Shown here: in pieces, positions 45,142 through 45,422 of the stretch | Numbering within the stretch: the stretch's first letter is position 1 | Layout of the letters: each line of letters starts with the position of its first letter | Assembly: GCA_024743195.1 (NCBI GenBank) | Contig: JANSXE010000002.1 | Span: 124,001 to 188,000 of the forward strand | Reading direction: 5' to 3' | From: Alphaproteobacteria bacterium | GTDB taxonomy: Bacteria; Pseudomonadota; Alphaproteobacteria; UBA8366; Aestuariispiraceae | Length of the DNA: 64,000 bases | Notes under the pieces: generated by a model | Database searches by the model: none | What the model saw: the letters and a program-made list of their open reading frames with translations, nothing else | What the model was told of the DNA's origin: nothing | Translations under genes and position numbers: made by a program

Positions 45142-45218
45142 GCGCCCGTAGCTCAGCTGGATAGAGCGTCGGCCTCCGGAGCCGAAGGTCAGAGGTTCGA
45201 ATCCTCTCGGGCGCGCCA
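45142..45218 (+). tRNA. tRNA-Arg(CCG)
   Basis: GCGCCCGTAGCTCAGCTGGATAGAGCGTCGGCCTCCGGAGCCGAAGGTCAGAGGTTCGAATCCTCTCGGGCGCGCCA; cloverleaf by eye, loop CTCCGGA, encoded CCA. Confidence 0.96.
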
Positions 45219-45422
45219 TTCTCCTTTCAGTCGAATAGCGCGTCCCGGATCTTATGGGTTCGGACTTCGTCCGTTGGGGCACGCCATTCTCCTTTCAGTC
45301 GAATAGCGCGTCCCGGATTCTATGGGTTCGGACTTCGTCCGTTGGGGCGCGCCATTCTCCTTTCAGTCGAATAGCGCGTCCCGGATTCTATGGGTTCGGA
45401 CTTCGTCCGTTGGGGCGCGCCA
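45219..45422 (+). repeat. Three 68-bp tandem repeats, each ending in the tRNA-Arg 3'-terminal sequence
   Basis: Copies 45219-45286, 45287-45354, 45355-45422; copies 2 and 3 identical, copy 1 differs at 3 positions; copies 2/3 end in GGGCGCGCCA like the tRNA. Confidence 0.95.

Follow-up and report, generated by a model that had tools for sequence, protein, structure and literature searches.

The 3′ ends of tRNA genes are very common landing sites for genomic islands. Tandem repeats can also stand directly downstream of a tRNA gene and re-create its 3′ end; in E. coli rtT the unit is about 178 bp and carries 19 nt of the tRNA 3′ end. The reference for these tyrT/rtT repeats is Bosl and Kersten (1991), as cited in PMC4986893, where rtT is an RNA released from the tyrT transcript. 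Cis-mobilizable elements (CIMEs), which can accrete in tandem at tRNA 3′ ends, have been defined among integrative elements, with att direct repeats of 8–60 bp (PMC5704250). By analogy, the array described here is rtT-like in layout and would work like a minimal CIME in behaviour.

The array lies in a 64,000-nucleotide stretch of contig JANSXE010000002.1, the window, from a genome of the genus Marivibrio (4.17 Mb, 31 contigs; G000, the own genome). The congener used for comparison is M. halodurans CGMCC 1.15697 (G001). Features of the array, in window coordinates, are as follows.

45142..45218, plus strand: tRNA-Arg(CCG), the anchor of the array, 3′ end CGGGCGCGCCA (ARAGORN; Rfam tRNA, 71 bits)
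45209..45218, plus strand: GGGCGCGCCA, 3′ end of the tRNA, where the junction repeat found again at the end of every unit first occurs
45219..45286, plus strand: unit 1, 68 bp, ending in GGGGCACGCCA (TRF, unit comparison)
45287..45354, plus strand: unit 2, 68 bp, ending in GGGGCGCGCCA (TRF, unit comparison)
45355..45422, plus strand: unit 3, 68 bp, the same as unit 2 (TRF, unit comparison)
45261..45273, plus strand: hairpin of unit 1, CGGAC-TTC-GTCCG, conserved in the family and recurring at +68 and +136
45234..45248, plus strand: segment of unit 1 around AATAGCGCGTCCCGG, complementary to the tRNA 3′ end CGGGCGCGCCATT, a conserved inverted repeat at fixed spacing
45423..45440, plus strand: TTCCTCCTGGGCTCGAAA past the last CCA, perhaps what is left of the beginning of a fourth unit (weak, by eye)

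The original prediction, a tRNA-Arg(CCG) followed by three 68-bp units, was borne out with exact boundaries by ARAGORN and TRF. TRF gives a tandem repeat at 45209–45430 with period 68, 3.2 copies and 96% matches; its score of 414 is far above all others among the 32 TRF rows of the window. Unit ends had been said to match the final 10 nt of the tRNA, GGGCGCGCCA, and do so at 10/10 positions in units 2 and 3 and at 9/10 in unit 1; the small hairpin claimed for each unit is likewise present. One point needed correction. The direct repeat runs past the CCA (GGCGCGCCATTC), which makes the boundary between tRNA and unit 1 a repeat junction too. No base separates unit 2 from unit 3; against both, unit 1 shows three differences in its 68 bases, at positions 33, 34 and 63, the last of which turns its end from GGGGCGCGCCA to GGGGCACGCCA. 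The copy number comes from a 31-contig assembly. The distinct sequence of unit 1 guarantees a minimum of two copies, and units 2 and 3 likely grew in tandem by unequal crossing-over. A coding repeat was dismissed, since a 68-bp period is not divisible by 3 and shifts the frame of ORFs along the array. All full-length unit matches in the 4.17-Mb genome fall at this array. Weak matches on contigs C3 and C20 contain the hairpin sequence only; they look coding and were attributed to chance. The array is real and above chance, and it extends into a family wider than the original prediction could see.

To look for related units, we searched the DNA of 40 relatives, scanned 84,980 species genomes by pattern and applied sequence models of the unit. 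We found them at 17 loci in 14 alphaproteobacterial genomes, comprising 14 intact tRNA-Arg genes, one tRNA-Leu gene and two tRNA-Arg 3′ fragments. In 17/17 loci the first unit starts at the base after the tRNA 3′-CCA, on the tRNA strand. An extra unit beyond these 17 loci was found in M. halodurans, behind a 1.46-kb segment adjoining tRNA-Arg(ACG). Unit length in the family is about 63–72 bp, and the target is mostly a tRNA-Arg ending GGCGCGCCA. The unit-bearing genomes are listed by tRNA and number of units.

Own genome (G000): tRNA-Arg(CCG), 3 units
M. halodurans (G001): tRNA-Arg(CCG), 1 unit and 1 divergent; tRNA-Arg(ACG), 1 unit
G007: tRNA-Arg(ACG), 3 units
G011: tRNA-Arg(ACG), 1 unit
G054: tRNA-Arg(ACG), 2 units
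G171: tRNA-Arg(TCT), 1 unit and 1 divergent; tRNA-Arg(ACG), 1 unit; tRNA-Arg(CCG), 1 unit
G031: tRNA-Arg(CCG), 1 unit
G429: tRNA-Arg(ACG) 3′ fragment, 2 units
HKST-UBA27: tRNA-Arg(CCG), 1 unit
Robiginitomaculum OFTM401: tRNA-Arg(ACG), 1 unit
Robiginitomaculum OFTM333: tRNA-Arg(ACG) 3′ fragment, 1 unit
Rhodospirillales TGS_PRO24: tRNA-Arg(CCG), 2 units
Sphingomonadales RBC054: tRNA-Leu(CAA), 1 unit and 1 partial
Erythrobacter MO_005.B18: tRNA-Arg(TCT), 1 unit

The distribution is sporadic and taxonomically incongruent. By pattern scan the units occur in 3 of 385 evenly drawn genomes of the class (the reversed-pattern control gave 0), and within the own family in 4 of 14 genomes. Occurrence at many loci unrelated to tRNA-Arg had been named as an outcome that would overturn the prediction; it was not seen, the single exception to tRNA-Arg being the one copy at tRNA-Leu. 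No unit match was found in plasmids, phages or IMG/VR. A pattern match in Gemmataceae (L069), which had no tRNA, was taken as chance. A repeat of genus g13 (G020, G023, G032) was set aside as a separate dispersed family, though it contains GGGCGCGCCA. It is about 110 bp long and contains GCGGTTCGAACTTTCTCCTNTNGGGCGCGCCAGCATTTTCCATA (L080, L087, L082, L083, L092, L094); in G023 its downstream half also lies directly behind the CCA of tRNA-Arg(CCG) (L021). In G011, a c-di-GMP-I-GGC riboswitch (Rfam RF03167, 67 bits; L012, 1210–1292, minus strand) lies about 200 bp downstream of the unit at tRNA-Arg(ACG).

Presence and absence of a unit could be compared at one orthologous site. At tRNA-Arg(ACG) of the own genome, GGGCGCGCCA is followed directly by CGCTTTCC, with no unit beside the tRNA. 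The syntenic locus of M. halodurans has a 69-bp unit between the same two sequences, with exact junctions. The own genome has CGCTTTCCACACAG after the tRNA; M. halodurans has the same sequence, as CGCTTTCCATAAAA, there preceded by exactly one unit, and the two loci share 79% identity over the following 1.47 kb. The ACG unit has been gained, or exactly lost, between two copies of GGGCGCGCCA. This is the one clean empty-site pair (n=1). G022 versus G031 was considered as a second and is ambiguous, with a decayed unit possible in G022; the CCG locus was discarded, there being no synteny between the two Marivibrio species.

Within a genome, units have also been copied from one tRNA gene to another. 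In M. halodurans the units at ACG and CCG differ at 1 base in 69, and in G171, where they are about 970 kb apart, at 1 base in 66; flanks differ in both genomes. In each the identical block is the shared tRNA 3′ end through to the CCA of the unit, where identity stops. Between genomes, the M. halodurans unit is 84% identical to those of HKST-UBA27 and TGS_PRO24, and identity between the Marivibrio species is 78%; units of unrelated lineages are at least as alike as units within Marivibrio. Numbers of units next to tRNA-Arg(ACG) vary among genomes with common upstream synteny (none in the own genome, one in M. halodurans, three in G007 and one in G011), and in G010 only the first 19 nt of a unit remain. 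Comparison of the window (45142–45218) with M. halodurans (G001:C2:9927–10003) places tRNA-Arg(CCG) and its units in different gene neighbourhoods, and the body of this tRNA in the own genome is identical to one in G016, a member of another family. These comparisons suggest that the tRNA-Arg(CCG) was replaced or relocated together with the array. The original prediction had offered repeated recombination at the tRNA 3′ end as an alternative to a function in RNA, and this alternative is the better supported, by the empty site, the exact unit-sized copying and the strict location in 14 genomes.

An alignment of 22 units shows three conserved parts: a 5′ part, often TTCTCaCTTCGTTCGAAc; a hairpin, GTTCGGAC-TTC-GTCC; and the tail GGGGCGCGCCA. 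The four-base hairpin stem pairs in 22/22 units, although its apparent invariance comes partly from match selection, several members having been found by patterns that require the hairpin. Its loop is variable (TTC, TTT, TGC, GTC), and in G171 and G031 the stem GGAC/GTCC has become GAAC/GTTC, a compensatory change. The middle of the unit can pair with the 3′ strand of the acceptor stem in the preceding tRNA, and the spacing between the two is constant. The summed score is 245–271 at offsets 38–41 versus about 138–180 at distant offsets, and was reached by 0 of 2000 composition shuffles, a statistic that ignores the relatedness of the units. Since the units are related by descent, the complementarity is no proof of selection. 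Pairing with the unit's own tRNA end was weakly better than with permuted ends (permutation 0.075). A second unit type (PRO24a, OFTM333, G031, G429) instead has a hairpin across the CCA junction. Junction hairpins have a mean z of −1.0, with several units folding no more stably than shuffles; the tRNA and array together fold better than shuffles (z −3.6). Among the first 16 units of the alignment RNAalifold detected little covariation. A search for an intrinsic terminator between tRNA-Arg(CCG) and the array found none, and no Rfam tRNA match was found inside units in the window region or at 14 unit-bearing loci. The idea that the units form CCA-ending pseudo-acceptor segments has fared poorly, a full 7-bp acceptor-like stem on the unit's own tail being found in 3/22 units. 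A mini-tRNA, in which an acceptor stem closes on the unit's own CCA, was accordingly rejected as a general feature.

Larger sequences also adjoin tRNA-Arg junctions. Behind the ACG tRNA, both Marivibrio species have a 1.46-kb segment and then a unit, with GGCGCGCCA at both segment ends; the unit beyond the segment is intact in M. halodurans and seemingly decayed in the own genome. The segment is 79% conserved between the two species (L122, M. halodurans contig C1, reverse, about 15,060–16,510; L112, contig C9 of the own genome). It has ORFs of 110 aa, peptidoglycan-binding-like by eye, and of 148 aa with no assigned function. We read the segment as a probable further insertion at the tRNA-Arg(ACG) junction, which seems to take other inserts because the segment is bounded by GGCGCGCCA at the ACG tRNA; alternatively, the segment may be native and have a unit at its far end. 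The units of G429 and OFTM333 stand behind 3′ fragments of tRNA-Arg, about 45–50 bp long, which are typical attR scars. The G429 locus (L119, contig C425) has a tyrosine integrase gene at 4101–5486, about 150 bp from units at about 3,800–3,950. By eye this integrase is P4-type, and it stands beside the truncated 3′ half of tRNA-Arg(ACG), an integrative-element attR. Units in both genomes (two of them in G429) lie on the host side of attR, and therefore predate the island. The adjacency of units to these fragments, and in G429 to the integrase, indicates that tRNA-Arg-targeting recombinases act at such loci. An integrase does not stand next to every unit; among loci seen, one is close by only in G429. 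Tyrosine recombinase genes are present in 14/14 unit-bearing genomes, and equally in 14/14 control genomes, so their presence does not discriminate. In the own genome they lie at C29:55275–55808, C31:64591–65109 and C15:559674–560162, and any housekeeping Xer genes in this set may be essential.

The parallel with rtT drawn in the original prediction stands for layout, tandem repeats directly behind a tRNA gene that re-create its 3′ end, and fails for family membership. The unit here is 63–72 bp, against about 178 bp, and about 10 nt of it are tRNA-derived, against 19; the sequence is unrelated; and the setting is tRNA-Arg in many genera of Alphaproteobacteria, with copying between tRNA genes. 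Rfam RtT had no match in the window region at E<=5 or at 14 unit-bearing loci at gathering thresholds, and no other Rfam family matched the unit in the window region or at those loci. With CIMEs the units share a tRNA 3′-end target, short direct repeats (GGGCGCGCCA flanks the ACG unit of M. halodurans), absence of an own recombinase, tandem arrays and a target kept intact. CIMEs, however, are kilobase elements with decayed genes, whereas the unit here is 68 bp and almost all attachment-like; no helper element was identified, nor was a known autonomous element with corresponding attL/attR found in plasmids, phages or IMG/VR. Integrons likewise place exact units in tandem behind one fixed platform, with a small hairpin in each, but the platform here is a tRNA 3′ end rather than attI, and the units have no gene. 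The GTTRRRY core was absent from 21/22 units, including flanks, on both strands; the sole match, in G007c, is inside a decayed unit end. REP/BIME (RAYT) sequences are also short, palindrome-bearing, non-autonomous repeats. Unlike them, the units are not dispersed intergenically in many copies: they occupy one or few loci per genome (the array alone in the own genome), at tRNA 3′ ends only and in one orientation.

With moderate confidence we interpret the array as a member of a family of non-autonomous elements that insert at, and regenerate, tRNA 3′ ends. A unit would insert directly after the tRNA CCA, always in the same orientation. Each unit ends in GGGGCGCGCCA, which copies the tRNA terminus and follows a T-arm-like hairpin; insertion would therefore keep the tRNA intact and rebuild the same junction. 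The regenerated junction could then accept another unit or a larger segment, and tandem arrays would arise from repeated insertion or from unequal crossing-over between units. The location, the exact junctions, the copying from tRNA gene to tRNA gene in a genome, the presence or absence at an orthologous site and the sporadic, taxonomically incongruent distribution are direct observations. As the units encode nothing, we infer that insertion proceeds by site-specific recombination at the tRNA 3′ end in trans, most likely through a tRNA-targeting tyrosine recombinase. Several points count against this cassette reading. At the loci seen, the units neither encode a recombinase nor have one consistently beside them. 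Classical excision would have to pass through a duplex circle of 68 bp, which is very small; the junction sequence in common is no longer than about 10 bp; plasmids, phages and IMG/VR gave no match; and there is one clean empty-site pair. The same junctions could also come from ordinary homologous recombination at the 3′ ends of tRNA-Arg genes.

That last point leads to the main rival, generic recombination over shared T-arm/acceptor sequence, in which units arise and spread with no dedicated mobility; we regard it as a real possibility, though not the probable one. Copy number would change by slippage or unequal crossing-over, moves from tRNA to tRNA would use short-homology recombination or lagging-strand annealing at T-arm/acceptor sequence, and spread between species would follow transfer of tRNA loci. 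The identity of units 2 and 3 is as expected after a recent tandem duplication, and the differing neighbourhoods of tRNA-Arg(CCG) in the two Marivibrio species mean that tRNA and units can move together. The 3′ halves of tRNA-Arg genes also supply homology on either side of every unit, roughly 20–30 bp on the left and about 10 bp on the right. A right arm that short is at odds, however, with the exact junctions of two unrelated genomes and of the empty site. Generic recombination also sits poorly with a sequence kept across orders and with the copy at tRNA-Leu, which has a different end. Decay of integrative elements is an improbable source: the units would be scars (attR remnants or minimal cis-mobilizable elements) of islands at tRNA-Arg. 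A tRNA 3′-end target and short direct repeats do fit tyrosine-recombinase att sites (8–60 bp; PMC5704250), and the tRNA-Arg fragments beside units in G429 and OFTM333 and the integrase in G429 also speak for this source. The position of those units on the host side of attR makes them older than the island, however; random decay would not give units so uniform in length and sequence across orders, and searches of plasmids, phages and IMG/VR gave no intact element whose ends resemble a unit.

We think it unlikely, if compatible with mobility, that the units are kept for a role in RNA. In the read-through transcript the unit might pair with the tRNA 3′ end as a hairpin, and processing might free CCA-ended hairpin RNAs; variants of this idea would have them control processing or act as an RNase decoy or sponge, like rtT or 3′ETS-leuZ. 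In its favour are the inverted repeat between acceptor 3′ strand and unit middle, at a fixed spacing and with a score that no shuffle reached, the second unit type's hairpin across the CCA, the compensatory change in the small hairpin, the fold of tRNA and array, and the absence of a terminator found before the array. Against these, the inverted-repeat score takes no account of unit relatedness, covariation with the unit's own tRNA end is weak, junction hairpins of several units fold no more stably than shuffles, and the acceptor-like closing stem is not conserved. Any such role must also be dispensable, because about 99% of sampled alphaproteobacterial genomes do without it.

An extension of the insertion model, which we put forward as doubtful, would make the tRNA-Arg 3′ end an integron-like landing platform, to which a recombinase serially adds hairpin cassettes and sometimes kilobase segments. 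Each cassette would bring a new landing site behind the CCA while the tRNA stays functional. If true, this platform would be the smallest mobile cassette system; we know of none smaller.

No published description of the unit family was found in the searchable literature, in which subscription papers were largely beyond reach, and to our knowledge exact blocks of about 70 bp that move from one tRNA gene to another appear to be new. The units explain odd alphaproteobacterial tRNA trailers that have no Rfam family. They may offer a test case for trailer sequence able to pair with the acceptor strand of its tRNA. They would also indicate how short an element with site-specific insertion can be, and would preserve a natural history of insertion events at the end of a tRNA.
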